From: Arthrobacter citreus
GTDB lineage: Bacteria; Actinomycetota; Actinomycetes; Actinomycetales; Micrococcaceae
Direction of reading: 5' to 3'
NCBI RefSeq assembly: GCF_038405225.1
Contig: NZ_CP151657.1
Span: forward strand, 310,001-374,000
Length of the DNA stretch: 64,000 nt
The notes beneath the pieces were generated by a model, which did no database searches, had not been told where the DNA came from, and saw nothing but the letters and a program-made list of their open reading frames with translations. The translations under genes and the position numbers were made by a program. Of the stretch, positions 47,964 through 56,645 are shown piece after piece (the first letter of the stretch is position 1; the number at the start of each line of letters is the position of its first letter).

Positions 47964-49553
47964 GTGACTAATTCCGCGACCCCTCCCATTGAAGAGCGCC
48001 CTGTCCTCGTTGTGGACTTCGGCGCCCAATACGCCCAGCTCATTGCCCGCCGGGTGCGCGATGCAGATGTTTATTCCGAAGTGGTTCCCCACACCTGGAC
48101 CACGGAACAGATCATGGCCAAGAACCCGGCAGCCATCATCCTTTCCGGCGGCCCCTCCAGCGTTTACGCGGAAGGCGCTCCCGCCGTCAGCGAAGGCCTG
48201 TTTGAAGCCGGCGTGCCGGTGCTGGGCATTTGCTACGGCTTCCAGGCCATGGCAAGCGTCCTCGGCGGCAAGGTCGCCGAGACCGGCCTGCGCGAGTACG
48301 GCTCCACCGACGCCACTGTGGTGGGCGGGGCCCGCTCCATCCTCGAAGGCACCCCCGAGCACCAGAACACCTGGATGAGCCACGGTGACAGCGTCCAGGA
48401 AGCCCCTCCCGGCTTCGATGTCCTGGCCACCACCGCCGGCGCCCCCGTTGCCGCCATTGCCAACGAAGAGAAGCGCCTTTACGGCGTTCAGTGGCACCCT
48501 GAGGTCAAGCATTCCGCCCACGGCCAGGCCGTGCTGGAAAACTTCCTCTTCAAGGGAGCCCGGCTGGAGCGCAGCTGGACCACCGGCAACATTGTCGAGG
48601 AACAGGTGGAGCGCATCCGCGAGCAGGTGGGCAGCTCCCGCGTCATCTGCGGGCTGTCCGGCGGCGTCGATTCCGCCGTCGCCGCTGCCCTGGTGCAGCG
48701 CGCAGTCGGCGACCAGCTCACCTGCGTCTTCGTTGACCACGGCCTGCTGCGCGAAGGCGAAGCGGAGCAGGTGGAACGCGACTTCGTGGCCTCCACCGGC
48801 GTCAACCTGTACGTCGCCAATGAGCAGAAGCGCTTCCTGGAAGCACTGGCCGGCGTCACCGACCCTGAAACGAAGCGCAAGATCATCGGCCGCGAGTTCA
48901 TCCGCGCCTTCGAGGAAGCCGAGCGGGCCATCATGGCCGAAGCCGAAGCTTCCGGCGAACCGATCCGTTTCCTGGTCCAGGGCACCCTGTACCCGGACGT
49001 CGTCGAATCCGGCGGCGGCGAAGGTGCAGCCAACATCAAGAGCCACCACAACGTGGGCGGCCTTCCCGAGGACCTGAAGTTTGAGCTCGTTGAGCCGCTG
49101 CGGGCCCTGTTCAAGGACGAAGTCCGCGCCGTGGGCGCCGAGCTTGGCTTGCCGGCGGAGATCGTCGGACGCCAGCCGTTCCCCGGCCCCGGCCTGGGCA
49201 TCCGCATCATCGGCGAAGTCAACCAGGAGCGCCTGGACCTGCTGCGCCGGGCCGACGCCATTGCCCGCGCCGAACTGACCGCAGCCGGCATGGACAATGA
49301 CGTGTGGCAGATGCCGGTGGTGCTGCTGGCCGACGTCCGCAGCGTCGGAGTGCAGGGTGACGGGCGGACCTACGGACACCCGATCGTCCTGCGTCCGGTC
49401 TCCAGCGAGGACGCGATGACCGCTGACTGGTCACGCCTGCCCTATGACCTGCTGGCACGCATCTCCAACCGGATTACCAACGAGGTGGACGGCATCAACC
49501 GAGTGGTCCTGGACGTCACGTCCAAGCCGCCGGGAACCATCGAGTGGGAGTAG
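47964..49553 (+). CDS. guaA: GMP synthase (glutamine-hydrolysing)
   Basis: GuaA aminates XMP to GMP. The class I glutaminase has C90 in [10 protein letters not shown] and H178/E180 in GVQWHPEV. The ATP-pyrophosphatase has the PP-loop [15 protein letters not shown] near residue 230. The C-terminal dimerisation part ends [20 protein letters not shown] and PPGTIEWE. Length 529. It starts at GTG without a ribosome binding site. guaB, the GuaB3 gene and guaA lie in the same 8-kb region but not in one operon. Confidence 0.97.
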
Positions 49554-49559
49554 ATTAGT

Positions 49560-49593
49560 CGCGGGGGACAGCCTAACCAGGCTGTCCCCCGCG
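49560..49593 (+). terminator. 15-bp perfect hairpin after guaA
   Basis: CGCGGGGGACAGCCT (49560-49574), loop AACC, AGGCTGTCCCCCGCG (49579-49593), then TTG. It starts 6 nt after the guaA stop and should terminate the transcript despite the short T-run. Confidence 0.78.
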
Positions 49594-49625
49594 TTGCTAT
49601 GCCGGGCAAACCCGGCAAGAAGCGA

Positions 49626-49638: not shown

Positions 49639-52600
49639 ATGCCGATTTGGTCAAGAACGCCGCGCGGAAGTGCAGAAAAGAGGGCACCTGTGTCTGAGCA
49701 GAATCCCGGGGACAACGCCTCGGACTTCCTGCTGCCCTGGCTGGGACAATTGGGGCAGCATGCCGGATCGGACACGCTTCTGCATTTCACCCCCTCAGCC
49801 TCCAACAGCATCGACCTGACTCACGCGCATCCTTCCGGGCTCGCCCAGCTGCTGGCAGGGCGCCGGACCCGGCTCTCCACCCTGCTGCGTGACTCGGAGC
49901 AGTACGGCGCGGCCATGAAAGCCGGACGCCTGCTGCGCGCCAAGATCTATGAACTGGGCACCGACCGCGGCATCGACGTCGGATACCTCGCCGCCGGAAC
50001 GGCATCCTGGCGCTACGCCGCCGACGACGCCGTCCGCCCCGAATCGCTGACCGCCCCGGTCCTGCTGACACCGGTGTCGCTGACAGTGCATCCCTCGCAG
50101 GACGACTACGAACTCCAGCTCACCGACAAGGCTTCCCTGAACCCCGCCTTTGTCCGGCACCTGCAGCAGGAACAGGAGCTGGACATCGACGTCGAGTCCC
50201 TGGCCCGGCTGGCCTACGGCACGGCGCGTTTCGATCCGCACCCGGTCCTGGAAAAACTGCGCGCCGTCACCGAGGGCGTCCGCGGCATCAACATTGAGCA
50301 CCGGCTCCTCGTTTCCACCTTCGCCGATCTCTCCGATCTTTCCGAAGACAGCGCACTGGACCCGGCGCACCCCATCCTGCGGGGACTGATGGACGCCGCC
50401 CGCGGGAAGAGCGCAGGCGCCCCCGCCGCCAAGGAACCGGGCCTCCCGCCGCTTGATGACCGGATGCCGGCCGACGAGCTCCTGGTGCTGGACGCCGACA
50501 GCGAGCAGCAGGACGTCCTGGACCTGATCCTGGACGGCCAGTCCCTGGTGGTTTCCGCCCCTCCGGGCACCGGACAGACCCAAACAGCCCTTAATGCCGC
50601 CGCGGCACTGGTCCACGCCGGAAAATCGGTCCTTGTGGTTGCCGAACGCCGTGGCACCCTGAACCAGTTCGTCTCCGAGCTCGACACGCTGAATCTGGGT
50701 TCAGCGGTGCTCCAGCTCAACGCCGGAGTCACCGAACAGCAGCTGAAGGACCAGCTGGTCCGGGCCATCGTCCGCAACGAGAAGGCCGCCGCACCGGACC
50801 TGGACAGCCTGCACAAGGTCCTGGTGGCCAACCGCCACCAGCTGCGCGACCACGTTAAGTCGCTGCACAACGTGCGCCGCCGCTGGGGCTGCTCGCCGTA
50901 CCAGGCCATGCAGTCCCTGGCCGAGCTGACCTCCATGAGCCCGGCACCGGCGACAACCGTCCGGCTCAAGCGCAGCGTCCTGGACAGCATCACGGACCGC
51001 ACCGAACTGACCGGCCGGCTGCGCCGCGCAGCGGAGCTTGGAAGCTTCAGCCGCGCCGCCACCACCAGCCCGTGGTTTGGCGCCAAGCTGCTCAACCGCA
51101 AGGAAACCGAAGAAGCCTACGAACTGACCCAGAGCCTGGCCCGGGACCTGCCGGAGCTGCGGGCCAAGGTGCAGGCTGTTGCCGAGCATTCGCAGATCCG
51201 CCTGGGCGAGACCTTTGCCCAGTGGGGCGAACAGCTGGAACTGCTGGTGGCCGTCCGGGAAAGCCTCGACAAGTTCACTCCGGACATCTTCGACCGCCCG
51301 GTCAGTGACCTGATTTCCGCCACGGCGTCCTCATCCTGGCGCCGCGAACGCGCCGTCGACATGAGTTCCATGACCCGTTCCCGGCTGCGCCGGGTGGCCA
51401 AGGAATACATCCGGCCGGGCGTGCACATCTCGGACCTGCACTCATCGCTGGTCGAGGTCCAGCAGCAGCGTGCCACCTGGGCACGCTATGCCACCACCCA
51501 GCGCCATCCCTCGGTGGCCACCGGGCTGGCGGACATCAACCGTTCCTACATCACCGTGAAGGACCAGCTCGACACCCTCACCGCAATCCTCGAGGGCACG
51601 CCCGCAAAGCCAAACCTCGCGGAGCTGACGCTGGACGAGCTGGAAAAGCAGCTCGACGCACTGGCCGGAGACCGGGAAACCCTCGAAACGCTGCCCGAGC
51701 GCACCCTGCTGCTCGACGAGATGCGCGGCCAGGGCCTGGGCGAACTGCTGGATGACCTGGAAGCACGGGAGGTCCAGCCCCGGCAGGTGGGATATGAGCT
51801 GGAACTGGCCTGGTGGCAGTCGGCCCTCGAAGCGATGATCAGCGGCGACGACTACCTGGCCATGAGTGACGGCGACAGCCTGCGCCGGCTGGAGGCCGAA
51901 TACCGGCTGGCCGACAATGCGCACATCGCCTCCGGCAGCTCCCGCGTCCGGTTTGCCCTGGCTGAGCGCTGGCGTCGCGGGGTGAAGGCGTCGGCTTCCG
52001 ACGCCGCGACCCTCCGCGATGCCATCAAGAACGGCCCCCTGACGCTGCAGCACCTGTGCAGCCAGCCGAAGGACCTGATTTCCGCACTCCTGCCGGTCTG
52101 GGCCGCGAGCCCGCTGGTGCTTCCCATGGTGCTGCCCGGAGACCGGACCTTCGACACGGTGATTGTCCTTGATGCCGAGTCCACGTCCCTGCAGTCCGCA
52201 GTGCCCGCGCTGGCCCGCGCGGCGCAGGTTGTTGCCTTTGGCGACGGCCAGCTGGGCGGACCACGGCCGTTCACCATCGGCGTCGAGCCGGCGCGTCCCG
52301 CAGGCGAGCAGCATGACCTCGTCAGCGCGTTCGAAGCCCTGGCCCAGGTCCTGCCGACCCGGACCCTGTCCACGGTGTACCGCGGAACGGACCGCGGCCT
52401 GCTGCATCAGCTCAGCCGCAGCTTCTACGATGACCGGCTTACCACCGTTCCGCGCGGCACTGATGTGTCCGACGACGAGCGGGCGCTGGTTGTGGAGTAC
52501 CTTGCTGACGGAACGGGCATGCCCAGCGCCGATCATGAGGGCGTCGAAAGCGTCGCCGCCGAGGTGAACCGGGTGGTGGACCTGGTCTTTGAGCACATCC

Positions 52601-53598
52601 GCCGCCGGCCGCATCAGTCCCTCGCAGTTGTCACGGCCAGCCCGCGGCACGCCGTGCGTGTGGCTGAGGCGATCCGGGTGCAGATGGCCAACTTCCCCTG
52701 GGCTTCGGACTTCTTCACTCCGGGCAAGGAATCCTTCCGCGTGGTCCCCGTGGACCGTGCCGCCGGCCTGGTGCGGGACTGCGTGATTTTCTCGCTCGGT
52801 TTCGGCCGCACTCCGCATGGGCGCGCGCTGCACACCTTCGGCCCGTTGTCCGCGTCCGACGGCCGTGGCAAGTTCCTGACGGCCATGACCCGTGCACGGA
52901 GCAAGCTCCATGTCCTGACCTGCTTCCGGCCCGAGGACCTCGATAAATCGCGCCTGGGGTATGGAGCACTCGACTTCTACGAGCTGATCAGCCGTGAACT
53001 GAGCCCTTCGTCCGGGGCAGCCTCCATCCCGCGCATCGACGCGGGAATCACCTTCAACGGTTCCGGCGGACGCGACACCAGCACCGGCGGCATCATGGAC
53101 GAGGATCCGCTGGTGGCGGACCTGGTCAACCGGCTCCGGGCCCGGGGCGCAAAGGTTTGGGACCACTATCAGGGGACCATCGACATTGTTGCCACCGTGG
53201 ACCGCAGCAGCAGCGACGCCGATCCCGCCGTGCCGATGGCTATCGAGTCCGACGGCACGGAGCGCTACCGCACCATGAGCGTGCGGGAACGCAGCCGGCT
53301 GCGCCCGCAGCTGCTGGAACGGCTTGGATGGCGCTACATGCCGCTGTGGACCATCGAGGTCTTCAGCGACCCCTCCGCATGTGCAGACCTGGTGGGACGC
53401 TACCTGAACCTGCCGGCGCCGAAGGACGGCGGAGAAAAGGCAGGCACCCCGGCCGCGTCAGTGCGGGGAACCATGGCCCGCCGCGGAAGCCAGCCTGTTG
53501 TTCCTCACGGCAGCAGCCGAATCCGGGAACGTGGAACGGTTACCCCCGGCAAGGAGGCTGGCCCGCAGGTTCCTGAGGCGGAAGCGCGCCGGCCGTGA
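49639..53598 (+). CDS. Large SF1-helicase-fold (COG1112/DUF4011-like) protein with nuclease-like C-terminus
   Basis: This 1319-residue protein follows the layout of UPF1-like SF1 helicases with an N-terminal DUF4011-type region (APVLLTPVSLTVHPSQDDYE, SLNPAFVRHLQQEQELDIDV) and a C-terminal restriction-nuclease-like domain. Its ATPase motifs are altered. Walker A is APPGTGQT (307-314) with Gln for Lys; motif II is LDAES (844-848) in place of DEAS; and motif III is GDGQLGGP in place of GDPKQLPP (868-875). Motif VI keeps TRAR (1084-1087). The C-terminus has D1182 and E1203-S-D-G with ERSRLRPQLLERLGWRYMPL, as in MTES_1575-type nucleases. I chose ATG 49639; GTG 49690 is an alternative. It is the largest gene in the window, follows guaA, and overlaps a small gene by 4 nt. 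Confidence 0.72.
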   Translation: MPIWSRTPRGSAEKRAPVSEQNPGDNASDFLLPWLGQLGQHAGSDTLLHFTPSASNSIDLTHAHPSGLAQLLAGRRTRLSTLLRDSEQYGAAMKAGRLLRAKIYELGTDRGIDVGYLAAGTASWRYAADDAVRPESLTAPVLLTPVSLTVHPSQDDYELQLTDKASLNPAFVRHLQQEQELDIDVESLARLAYGTARFDPHPVLEKLRAVTEGVRGINIEHRLLVSTFADLSDLSEDSALDPAHPILRGLMDAARGKSAGAPAAKEPGLPPLDDRMPADELLVLDADSEQQDVLDLILDGQSLVVSAPPGTGQTQTALNAAAALVHAGKSVLVVAERRGTLNQFVSELDTLNLGSAVLQLNAGVTEQQLKDQLVRAIVRNEKAAAPDLDSLHKVLVANRHQLRDHVKSLHNVRRRWGCSPYQAMQSLAELTSMSPAPATTVRLKRSVLDSITDRTELTGRLRRAAELGSFSRAATTSPWFGAKLLNRKETEEAYELTQSLARDLPELRAKVQAVAEHSQIRLGETFAQWGEQLELLVAVRESLDKFTPDIFDRPVSDLISATASSSWRRERAVDMSSMTRSRLRRVAKEYIRPGVHISDLHSSLVEVQQQRATWARYATTQRHPSVATGLADINRSYITVKDQLDTLTAILEGTPAKPNLAELTLDELEKQLDALAGDRETLETLPERTLLLDEMRGQGLGELLDDLEAREVQPRQVGYELELAWWQSALEAMISGDDYLAMSDGDSLRRLEAEYRLADNAHIASGSSRVRFALAERWRRGVKASASDAATLRDAIKNGPLTLQHLCSQPKDLISALLPVWAASPLVLPMVLPGDRTFDTVIVLDAESTSLQSAVPALARAAQVVAFGDGQLGGPRPFTIGVEPARPAGEQHDLVSAFEALAQVLPTRTLSTVYRGTDRGLLHQLSRSFYDDRLTTVPRGTDVSDDERALVVEYLADGTGMPSADHEGVESVAAEVNRVVDLVFEHIRRRPHQSLAVVTASPRHAVRVAEAIRVQMANFPWASDFFTPGKESFRVVPVDRAAGLVRDCVIFSLGFGRTPHGRALHTFGPLSASDGRGKFLTAMTRARSKLHVLTCFRPEDLDKSRLGYGALDFYELISRELSPSSGAASIPRIDAGITFNGSGGRDTSTGGIMDEDPLVADLVNRLRARGAKVWDHYQGTIDIVATVDRSSSDADPAVPMAIESDGTERYRTMSVRERSRLRPQLLERLGWRYMPLWTIEVFSDPSACADLVGRYLNLPAPKDGGEKAGTPAASVRGTMARRGSQPVVPHGSSRIRERGTVTPGKEAGPQVPEAEARRP

Positions 53599-53813
53599 GC
53601 CCCCGGAAACCGCACCGGCGGGCCAGCGGCGGAAGCGCGCCGAAGCCCGTCACGCCGTCTCAGCCGTCTCAATCGTCTGAAGAGTCCCGGGCGCCGGCGG
53701 AGCCGTCGGTGCTGAAGGCCAAGGCTGCGGATGACGATCCGCGGGTGTGGGGCGACGGGCCCGAGGACCGCGATTCATGGCTGCTCGAACAGCGTCCTCC
53801 CCACTGGGACTGA
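53595..53813 (+). CDS. Small conserved hydrophilic protein, function unknown
   Basis: The 72-residue protein starts at GTG overlapping the helicase-fold gene stop by 4 nt (GTGA). Residues 1-45 are Ser/Pro/Ala-rich and likely disordered; the end DDDPRVWGDGPEDRDSWLLE QRPPHW is compositionally distinct and looks conserved. I recall similar short proteins in Arthrobacter but know no function. Translational coupling suggests it works with or is dosed alongside the large upstream protein. Confidence 0.7.
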   Translation: MSPRKPHRRASGGSAPKPVTPSQPSQSSEESRAPAEPSVLKAKAADDDPRVWGDGPEDRDSWLLEQRPPHWD

Positions 53814-54594: not shown

Positions 54595-54915
54595 CTATGC
54601 GGCGGAGGAACCGGTGCCGGCCGCTGAACCTGCGGACTGCGGTTTAGCCGACGAGCCGGACTCCGTGGACTTCGGGGAAGAAGCGCCGGCCGACGTGCTG
54701 TCGGACTTGGCCGGCGCTGCAGGCACCGTGTTCTTGGCGTCCCGGGAATCGGTGCGGTAGAAACCCGATCCCTTAAAGACGACGCCCACGCTGTTGAACT
54801 TCTTGCGCAGATTTCCGCTGCAAGAAGGGCATACGGTCAGGGTGTCATCGGTGAAGGACTGCTGGATGTCGAAAGCGGAACCGCAGTCCTTGCAGGCATA
54901 GGCATACGTAGGCAC
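54595..54915 (-). CDS. FmdB-family zinc-ribbon protein, probable Ruc-type chaperone
   Basis: The 106-residue protein starts MPTYAYACKDCGSAFDIQQS and has a zinc ribbon with C8/C11 and C29/C32 (CPSC). It then has a short FmdB core (KFNSVGVVFKGSGFYRTDSR) and a Ser/Ala-rich disordered tail (residues 64-106). In Mycobacterium tuberculosis the FmdB-like Rv0991c (Ruc) is a redox-regulated chaperone located next to the same neighbours, 5-formyl-THF cyclo-ligase and galU. That synteny, plus the CIRCE upstream, supports a heat-shock chaperone role. GGAGGAG lies upstream of the ATG. Confidence 0.88.
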   Translation of the reverse strand: MPTYAYACKDCGSAFDIQQSFTDDTLTVCPSCSGNLRKKFNSVGVVFKGSGFYRTDSRDAKNTVPAAPAKSDSTSAGASSPKSTESGSSAKPQSAGSAAGTGSSAA

Positions 54916-54984
54916 TGTTACTTACTCCTCCTGAAAACCAAGATGTCAGGCCCCTGGCCCCGCTGGTCCGTCAAAAAACGGCAG

Positions 54985-55011
54985 CTGGCACTCGGTGGCC
55001 TTGAGTGCTAA
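54985..55011 (-). promoter_or_regulatory. CIRCE operator for the FmdB/Ruc homologue
   Basis: On the minus strand, TTAGCACTC (55011-55003), a 9-bp spacer and GAGTGCCAG (54993-54985) match the CIRCE consensus at 16 of 18 arm positions, with the promoter-proximal arm perfect. TATAGT (55016-55011) directly upstream is a good -10, so transcription should start inside the operator, as at groES. It overlaps the stop codon of the cyclo-ligase gene. Confidence 0.82.
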
Positions 55012-55637
55012 CTATACACCGGGTGCCGCGGCAGTGTTTTCCATCCCGACGGCGTCAGGACAGCGTCCATCGGCTGGTCGAAATGATCCGCGGGCCAGCT
55101 TCCGGCAGGGGCAAACTCGTGGTCGTACACAATGCCCACCGCCGGTGCGGTGTTTCCGGCGGCCCGGAGACCGGACAGGAACCTGTCGTAATAACCGCCG
55201 CCCTTGCCCATGCGGACGCCGGTGTGGTCCACCGCCAGGGCCGGAACCAGCACGAGGTTCAGCCGGGGAAGTTCTGCCGCCGGCATCCGTTCCCCCGCAG
55301 GTTCCGGAACCGACGGAAACAGCCCTGGAACCAGCGGCGCATCAGGGCTCCAGCGGCACCACAGCAGCCGGCGGTCCGGCTGGCAGATGGGGACCACGAC
55401 GTCGTATCCCCGCTCCCGCAAGCCATGAAGCAGCGGCAGGGTGCCGGGTTCCCGGCCGGCGGACAAATAGGCCGCCACCGTGCTGCCGGGGGGAACGAGT
55501 CCCGGGACGGAGGACAGCGCGTGTTCGGCGAGGGAAGCGCCGGCCGCCGGCGGGGCCGTGGGGGGCAGTTCCCGGCGCAGCCGGCGGTACTTTTCCCGAA
55601 CCAGTTCCTTCGGTGCGGGGACAGGGAAGTCCATCAT
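55008..55637 (-). CDS. 5-formyltetrahydrofolate cyclo-ligase
   Basis: This enzyme (MTHFS) converts 5-formyl-THF to 5,10-methenyl-THF with ATP. The 209-residue protein has the family motif RMGKGGGYYDRFLSGLR, VLVPALAVDHTGV and VGIVYDHEF. Two Met codons open the frame (55637 and 55634). It is divergent from galU with a 102-bp gap and upstream of fmdB, matching the mycobacterial order Rv0991c-Rv0992c-galU. Its 3' end contains the fmdB promoter and CIRCE. Confidence 0.93.
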   Translation of the reverse strand: MMDFPVPAPKELVREKYRRLRRELPPTAPPAAGASLAEHALSSVPGLVPPGSTVAAYLSAGREPGTLPLLHGLRERGYDVVVPICQPDRRLLWCRWSPDAPLVPGLFPSVPEPAGERMPAAELPRLNLVLVPALAVDHTGVRMGKGGGYYDRFLSGLRAAGNTAPAVGIVYDHEFAPAGSWPADHFDQPMDAVLTPSGWKTLPRHPVYS

Positions 55638-55726
55638 TGGTCCATTCTTGCAAAGAGACTGCTTACAATCGGCGAAACGGGCCGGTATAACCGGCCGGTA
55701 TTTGGTGAAAGAGGCCTGTGCTTATG

Positions 55727-55732
55727 TACTCT
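55727..55732 (+). promoter_or_regulatory. Candidate -10 box for leaderless galU
   Basis: TACTCT lies 7 nt before the galU ATG at 55740, and there is no Shine-Dalgarno sequence. TTGGTG (55702-55707) is a weak -35 candidate. Confidence 0.45.
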
Positions 55733-55739
55733 TACGGAC

Positions 55740-56645
55740 ATGACTTCACGCGCCACCGTAACCAAAGCCGTTATTCCCGCCGCCGGGCTGGGTACCCGAT
55801 TCCTGCCGGCCACCAAGGCCATGCCGAAGGAAATGCTGCCGGTGGTTGACAAGCCCGCCATCCAGTACGTCGTGGAAGAAGCCGTTAATTCCGGGATGTC
55901 CGACATCCTGATGATTACCGGCCGCAACAAGCGTTCGCTGGAAGATCATTTTGACCGCGTTCCGTTCATTGAAAAGACGCTGGAAGACAAGGGCGACCTG
56001 GAACGCCTCGCCATGGTCCGTGCCGCCTCGGAACTGGGCGAAATTCACTACCTGCGCCAGGGCGACCCCAAGGGCCTCGGACATGCCGTCCTGCGCGCCA
56101 AGCTCCACGTGGGTAACGAGCCCTTCGCCGTCCTGCTCGGTGATGACCTCATTGATGCCCGTGACGAGCTCCTGAAGCAGATGGTTGAGGTCCAGGCGAA
56201 AACCGGTGGTTCGGTCATCGCCCTCATTGAGGTGGAACCCTCACAGATCAGCTCCTACGGCTGCGCCGACATCTCCGTGGTTGAGGGCGAGGACTACGTC
56301 CGCGTCAACAAGCTGGTGGAAAAGCCGTCGGTTGACGAGGCACCGTCCAACCTGGCCGTTATCGGCCGCTACGTGCTGCACCCGGCAGTGTTCGGCGTGC
56401 TGGAGGAAACCGGACCGGGCCGCGGCGGTGAAATCCAGCTGACTGATGCGCTGCAGACCCTTGCCGCGCAGGAAGACGGAGAGGGTGCCGGAGTCTACGG
56501 TGTTGTCTTCCGCGGCCGCCGGTACGACACCGGAGACAAGCTCAGCTACCTCAAGGCCGTGGTGACCCTGGCCTCCGAGCGCGAAGACTTGGGCCCGGAC
56601 CTTCGCGAGTGGCTCAAGAGCTTCACCGGTACGCTCGAAAGCTGA
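55740..56645 (+). CDS. galU: UTP-glucose-1-phosphate uridylyltransferase
   Basis: GalU makes UDP-glucose. The 301-residue protein has the nucleotide-binding loop AVIPAAGLGTRFLPATKAMP, KEMLPVVDKPAIQYVVEEAV, GDDLIDARDELL and VVFRGRRYDTGDKLSYLKA. ATG 55740 (MTSRATVTKAV) is chosen; the frame open from 55005 is antisense to the cyclo-ligase gene. It opens a galU-rimJ-(glpR/sepX-like) cluster. In other Actinobacteria a moeA-like gene (glp) lies between galU and rimJ; it is absent here. Confidence 0.96.
   Translation: MTSRATVTKAVIPAAGLGTRFLPATKAMPKEMLPVVDKPAIQYVVEEAVNSGMSDILMITGRNKRSLEDHFDRVPFIEKTLEDKGDLERLAMVRAASELGEIHYLRQGDPKGLGHAVLRAKLHVGNEPFAVLLGDDLIDARDELLKQMVEVQAKTGGSVIALIEVEPSQISSYGCADISVVEGEDYVRVNKLVEKPSVDEAPSNLAVIGRYVLHPAVFGVLEETGPGRGGEIQLTDALQTLAAQEDGEGAGVYGVVFRGRRYDTGDKLSYLKAVVTLASEREDLGPDLREWLKSFTGTLES

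Follow-up and report, generated by a model that had tools for sequence, protein, structure and literature searches.

A UPF1-like protein with substituted ATPase motifs, conserved across the Micrococcaceae, as a candidate pseudo-helicase scaffold associated with a PPHW microprotein

What keeps a protein with the build of a helicase-nuclease in an entire bacterial family when its ATPase motifs have been replaced? This question is raised by a gene in the 64,000-nucleotide stretch of Arthrobacter citreus DNA analysed here (the window; NCBI RefSeq assembly GCF_038405225.1, contig NZ_CP151657.1, positions 310,001 to 374,000 of the forward strand), which encodes a protein of 1319 residues, P0001, and is followed by a gene for a small protein, P0002. 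The reading that we favour, with moderate confidence, sees in P0001 a pseudo-helicase that is inherited vertically as a core protein and would act as an ATP-independent nucleic-acid-binding scaffold. A wider version, which we put forward tentatively and would call possible rather than probable, describes a housekeeping scaffold for nucleic acids that is found throughout the order and may be essential; a helicase-nuclease would have given rise to it by losing its two enzymatic activities in succession, several times independently, and it would work with a microprotein so far without assignment, common in the class and ending in PPHW. The parts of P0001 lie at the following window positions.

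49639..53598, + strand: P0001, 1319-residue DUF4011/UPF1-like candidate pseudo-helicase with a Vsr/MTES_1575-like C-terminus (open reading frame (ORF), Pfam, AlphaFold2, Foldseek)
49738..50418, + strand: DUF4011-bearing N-terminal region, residues 34-260
50557..50580, + strand: motif I (Walker A), APPGTGQT from residue 307, Q313 replacing lysine
50839..51918, + strand: insert between motifs I and II, mostly helical, residues 401-760
52171..52182, + strand: motif II, DAES, residues 845-848, alanine at the glutamate position
52240..52263, + strand: motif III, GDGQLGGP, residues 868-875
52726..52848, + strand: motif V region, residues 1030-1070, placed by alignment with intact relatives
52888..52899, + strand: motif VI, TRAR, residues 1084-1087
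53086..53403, + strand: Vsr/MTES_1575-like domain, residues 1150-1255, with D1182, E1203 and D1205 (ESDGTERYR from 1203)

The motif spellings of the original prediction were all found at these positions, and its claim that the ATPase looks dead while the fold remains was strengthened by the relatives. Among 76 distinct family (Micrococcaceae) sequences, 27 of them from the own genus, residue 313 is glutamine in 65 and lysine in none, glutamine also occurring in 38 of the 49 sequences from outside the genus, and residue 846 is alanine in 72, glycine in two, serine in two and glutamate in none (80th percentile of column conservation for Ala846). With Q313 and DAES, P0001 carries neither the Walker A lysine nor the motif II DE pair of a superfamily 1 (SF1) UPF1-like helicase. 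Sister species with an intact lysine and DExx would have spoken for a gene in decay; none was found in the 76 family sequences, and intact motifs occur elsewhere, in 8 of 123 aligned relatives. On this alignment, the ATPase-site substitutions are fixed across the family. Around them much is kept, namely G310 and D869 in 76 of 76 sequences, T314 in 71, D845 in 74, R915 in 75, R1085 in 74 and R1087 in 76, and motif Ia and the motif V stretch RDxVIFSLGxGRTPHGR of P0001 are close to the sequence of intact relatives; the motif III glutamine is not maintained (Q at 871 in 18/76). A codon pattern for PG[TS]GQTQT, which the own-genus sub-clade with PAGTGQ cannot fit, was present in 260 of the 395 family genomes scanned, and the reversed-pattern control had no hit among the matches listed. 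The P-loop of the 123 aligned sequences is intact in 8, changed only at the lysine in 81 and eroded in 34, and in other families it reads TLPGTGGTQT (f19), TPPGTGATQ (f6) or GRTQT (f38), or is eroded. From these substitutions we infer that P0001 does not turn over ATP.

That the protein follows the UPF1-type motif order was borne out by its ORF, by the motif positions and by structure prediction. An AlphaFold2 model of residues 46-1245, built from a 93-row alignment, reached a predicted local distance difference test score (pLDDT) of 90.7 and a predicted template modelling score of 0.82, and its top Foldseek matches were Senataxin, Aquarius, IGHMBP2, UPF1 and Dna2, in agreement with a profile search against PDB sequences, which matched IGHMBP2 and UPF1 chains. 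We are therefore confident that the modelled protein has a UPF1-like fold including the RecA domains. In Pfam, DUF4011 (PF13195) matches residues 100-172 above its cut-off (29.4 against 22.2 bits, profile positions 85-155 of 158), and a weak DEAD match covers residues 289-406. One relative (L126), the C-terminus of which is apparently shifted, was left out of both AlphaFold alignments and of the tree described below; the first alignment also omits L052, L076, L148, L150, L155 and 21 own-genus rows, and the second (67 rows) omits 54 of the 83 available non-fused rows.

The fused nuclease proposed originally holds in part. A match to MTES_1575 REase (PF18741) at residues 1162-1250 (E 8.3e-8) stays below the Pfam cut-off with 32.7 against 38.2 bits; a relationship to MTES_1575 REase is likely, and the PD-(D/E)xK nature of the C-terminus is supported at the sequence level by this sub-threshold match together with the conserved residues. 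The triad D1182, E1203 and D1205 is kept in all 27 own-genus sequences, as the prediction would have it, but 23 of the 76 family sequences have another residue in place of E1203, while all 76 keep D1205, and the triad is complete in just 42 of the 123 aligned sequences.

How the two activities were lost can be read from a tree of these 123 sequences, built without the catalytic columns, in which the own genus is represented by five loci plus P0001. The eight sequences with an intact ATPase, all from families other than Micrococcaceae, are placed near several dead ones in this one tree, which agrees with P0001 being a pseudohelicase in the sense (following PMC4504706) of a descendant of intact helicases whose catalytic residues are gone. 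Seven of the eight occupy the same locus, with fmdB downstream and a PPHW tail (L119, L121, L129, L147 and L265-L267, the last three being the refetched loci L070, L069 and L080), and two further intact loci outside the tree (L268 and L269) have the same layout; the eighth, a copy from family f45 (L211), has neither fmdB nor the tail nearby. ATPase and nuclease are both intact in 8 sequences and both lost in 81, 34 combine a dead ATPase with a full triad, and no sequence with a broken triad has kept its ATPase intact. This distribution would place the loss of the ATPase first and that of the nuclease after it. Dollo parsimony counts four losses of the lysine with a root outside the order or six with a midpoint root, numbers that vary with method and rooting.

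The gene is under purifying selection in the genus, as the median pairwise ratio of nonsynonymous to synonymous substitution rates (dN/dS, Nei–Gojobori method NG86) among 29 genus genomes is 0.155 for residues 34-1255, and the dN/dS check proposed for it thus describes a gene that is not decaying. Along the protein the median is 0.106 in the N-terminus, 0.180 in residues 261-400, 0.101 in the insert 401-760, 0.199 in residues 761-1115, 0.146 in the nuclease part and 0.563 in residues 1256-1319, meaning that the strongest constraint is on the N-terminus and the helical insert and not on the ATPase site. P0001 was matched in all 29 genomes of the genus and in all 295 family genomes from 32 genera, in one of them weakly (G099, E 1.6e-7); its closest named relatives are from Arthrobacter, with an A. 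gandavensis protein 97% identical to it. In the order, 194 of 198 genomes (15 of the 198 being from the own family) gave a match and the four others are drafts in 170-610 contigs; 37 of the 118 genomes sampled from the class also gave one. Order and class matches were counted at E <= 0.001 and include paralogues, orthology having been checked on the fetched loci. Outside the order, near-full-length matches were found in nine class genomes from families f25, f38 and f45. The protein is also retained in two genomes of only 0.8-0.9 Mb (99 and 100% complete; family f4, L205 and L206) as open frames of 1205 and 1221 residues with eroded motifs and fmdB downstream. Stop-to-stop frames of 1602-1734 residues were seen in six other-family relatives (L219, L184, L212, L120, L127 and L130). 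A separate frame of about 2100 residues, 26-28% identical to P0001, is present in two of the 29 genus genomes (G024, locus L030, and G027) and also on G037:C12 and G050:C1, and is probably an active DUF4011-type paralogue. The window genome holds neither a second match to P0001 nor a PF13087 match, so that pairing of P0001 with an active paralogue of its own family is unlikely there.

The surroundings of P0001 comprise the following genes.

47964..49553, + strand: guaA (GATase and GMP_synt_C domains), upstream neighbour
53595..53813, + strand: P0002, 72-residue ORF, GTGA-coupled to P0001, ending in RPPHWD, residues ~34-71 conserved
54595..56645, strand not assigned: FmdB-type zinc ribbon, 5-formyltetrahydrofolate (5-FTHF) cyclo-ligase and a nucleotidyltransferase, which we take to be GalU-like; downstream synteny common to other families of the order

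The adjacency to guaA that was noted originally is a property of the family, where guaA lies upstream in 72 of 76 distinct sequences (exceptions L066, L067, L102 and L154), but it does not extend to the 32 other-family loci (L117-L148), none of which has guaA within 2.6 kb upstream, and a general link to guaA was therefore rejected. At 28 of these 32 loci at least one of FmdB, 5-FTHF cyclo-ligase, the GalU-like protein and an acetyltransferase is encoded within 9 kb downstream. We read the P0001 locus as a single vertically inherited locus and not as an island. In the gap between guaA and P0001, a GC-rich inverted repeat (GGGGGACAGCC...GGCTGTCCCCC) at 49558-49596 is possibly the guaA terminator, in which case guaA and P0001 may be transcribed separately.

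P0002 is indeed a protein of 72 residues coupled to P0001 through GTGA, the overlap of the end of one ORF with the start of the other, but its first description as a disordered protein needs a correction: its last ~35 residues form a conserved element, which many relatives carry as an in-frame fusion with the helicase. Neither Pfam, NCBIfam nor PADLOC returned a match for P0002. Of 100 family genomes, 62 contain a relative of it at E <= 0.001, recognised chiefly via residues ~34-71, and the tail has the consensus LPxxAxxDxxxxWGDxxxxxDxxLxxxRPPHW. Downstream ORFs ending in PPH[WYFH] are separate at 103, fused at 40 and absent at 5 of 148 partly redundant loci; at least one of these pattern matches (L102) is probably due to chance, the likelier tail of this locus having been found by BLAST. 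The tail is present in 66 of 77 loci larger than 14 kb, or 49 of 60 after removal of 17 named Arthrobacter loci, against 7 of 799 control windows. In the tree, 39 of 123 sequences carry the tail fused to the helicase, with 15 switches between the fused and the separate state (Fitch parsimony), and such in-frame fusions suggest a shared function of helicase and microprotein. A profile of the tail matched 110 of 197 class genomes at one place each, at least 10 of the 110 belonging to the own order. This profile is insensitive, as it left six f19 genomes unmatched although f19 loci carry downstream ORFs ending in PPHY or PPHW by pattern. It also matched 12 of the 20 helicase-negative class genomes listed (61 more stand outside this list), for which reason we rejected the view of P0002 as a mere helicase tail as the sole reading; to judge by its tail, the PPHW microprotein exists independently of the helicase. 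Rough-ORF clustering of 19 helicase-less loci (L245-L263) placed an MscL-like gene at 7, a SAF-type gene at 8 and an FmdB-like gene at 10 of them, with the MscL identity confirmed by Pfam for one locus; the upstream genes vary, and no partner emerged from these fetched loci.

Taken together, these findings suggest the following scheme. The ancestor would have been an active helicase-nuclease of the DUF4011 (UPF1-like) type, encoded at the locus where P0001 now lies; it lost the Walker lysine and the motif II glutamate while the P-loop shape, the motif II aspartate, part of motif V, the motif VI arginines and the helical insert were retained. Several of these retained parts face the nucleic acid or hold the fold together in such helicases. 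Using the former helicase groove together with the conserved insert, P0001 may bind a nucleic-acid structure, and it may serve in recognition or assembly as a scaffold that needs no ATP, in the manner of Deinococcus radiodurans PriA (DrPriA), RecC/AddB and Utp25. In the genus of the window the nuclease may still cut the target recognised by the scaffold; in most aligned relatives the triad is incomplete. The PPHW tail, whether present in cis or in trans, could serve to dock a partner. We favour a scaffold because the lost residues are those of hydrolysis, the insert is kept and many relatives also dispense with the nuclease.

Several observations weigh against this scheme. Motif V reads AGLV in P0001 where intact relatives have QGDE, so that not all contacts to the nucleic acid are retained, and with an identity of 86% against a column median of 74% (64th percentile) Gln313 is conserved but falls short of the most strictly kept columns. 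It is still conceivable that P0001 binds a nucleotide or hydrolyses it slowly, as the residual P-loop, T314, D845 and the motif VI arginines are conserved. Fitch parsimony needs three changes at the lysine site, fewer than the four to six Dollo losses. As for the microprotein, the two frames from the 0.8-0.9 Mb genomes have no recognisable PPHW tail and both end in MGIGDLEDDKG, and its presence without the helicase means that the link between the two may partly be adjacency. Docking of the tail is also unsupported by a model of a fused relative (the last 1200 residues of L150, pLDDT 88.1), in which the tail reaches a pLDDT of only about 61-64.

Other explanations deal differently with the same residues. 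P0001 could be an ATP-independent structure-specific nuclease, with the dead helicase positioning DNA or RNA and the Vsr-like domain cutting it, and the unbroken triad of the genus, the invariant D1205, the dN/dS of 0.146 in the nuclease segment and the 34 sequences that combine a dead ATPase with a full triad are what such an enzyme would leave. The gene has nonetheless been kept where E1203 is replaced and in the majority of the 123 sequences, in which the triad is incomplete, making cutting unlikely as the function common to all relatives, and we consider this explanation doubtful. A nucleotide-sensing switch, binding a nucleotide without hydrolysis and changing its shape, is distinctly unlikely; it would account for the 81 P-loops altered at the lysine alone and for T314, D845 and the motif VI arginines being mostly kept in the family, but not for the gene being kept with the 34 eroded loops, and the K230R change in Escherichia coli PriA is reported, in the passage concerning this mutant, to abolish ATPase and helicase activities (PMC4504706).

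The library matches themselves point to an anti-phage defence protein of the Hhe, ProA or PDC-S37 kind with altered motifs. The PADLOC model PDC-S37, for which no cut-off is given, leads with 363.5 bits over three stretches, followed by the NCBIfam equivalogs ProA with 330 and Hhe with 166.5 bits, scores far under the cut-offs of 1500 and 2000 bits for membership of the latter two. Defence systems are typically patchy, mobile and set in islands, whereas P0001 occurs in every family genome with conserved synteny and is retained in the two 0.8-0.9 Mb genomes. A large DUF4011 gene does flank a defence hotspot in P. aeruginosa, but in the part of that report dealing with it the gene is a core gene of every isolate, and a flank rather than cargo (PMC10250203), leaving a defence role very unlikely in our view. 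One or two stops within the match at a few loci would fit a relic gene under decay, which we regard as hardly credible and rejected in light of the identical substitutions fixed family-wide, the low dN/dS in the genus and the presence in all 295 family genomes. An ATP-independent scaffold thus remains the reading that we prefer.

The occurrence of a P0001-like protein of ~1200-1700 residues, mostly without working ATPase motifs, in 194 of 198 order genomes and in two genomes of 0.8-0.9 Mb implies a core function, and the series of intact, ATPase-dead and doubly dead relatives allows the property kept by selection to be tested. The microprotein, recognisable by its tail, could help to find partners, and its own gene is conserved but unassigned. 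Owing to the PDC-S37 match, automatic pipelines could place the P0001 gene, a core gene, among the defence candidates. Our searches of open-licence papers found no literature on the P0001 lineage or its PPHW partner. The statement that a conserved pseudo-helicase scaffold would be new went too far, since DrPriA and Utp25 are published pseudohelicases; as far as we searched, what is new in this known kind is an order-wide UPF1-like helicase-nuclease that has apparently lost its activities step by step and is linked to a widespread microprotein.

DrPriA, in the sections of the report describing it, is a pseudohelicase without ATPase activity that has kept DNA binding and shows evidence of contact with DnaB, and it has in common with P0001 that it is a bacterial relative of helicases and that another residue stands in for the Walker A lysine throughout a lineage (PMC4504706). 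It differs in being a PriA-family protein with a lysine-to-arginine change and DnaB as its partner, whereas P0001 is UPF1-like, its lineage has glutamine in the family and glycine, alanine, arginine or others elsewhere, a nuclease-like domain and the PPHW microprotein, and its binding is predicted. AddB and RecC recognise Chi by inactivated helicase domains, according to the portion of the report on these subunits, and are thus likewise helicase folds without motifs that recognise nucleic acid in helicase-nuclease machines (PMC4824097), but they are UvrD-like and complexed with active helicases; the window genome has no second P0001 match and no PF13087 match. Yeast Utp25 is described, where its motifs are discussed, as an essential pseudohelicase in which these are dispensable; unlike P0001 it is DEAD-box-like, eukaryotic and devoted to ribosome assembly (PMC9539457). 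With Hhe, ProA and PDC-S37, compared via their library entries, P0001 shares a match spanning its helicase and C-terminal parts, Hhe being described as DUF4011-containing, while their models are longer with 1797, 1903 and 1550 positions against 1319 residues. These proteins presumably have active motifs. The intact relatives in families f5 and f17 share the locus upstream of fmdB and the PPHW tail with P0001. Like P0001, all eight intact relatives (f5, f17 and f45) keep the nuclease triad, but in contrast to it they also have the Walker lysine and DEAS.

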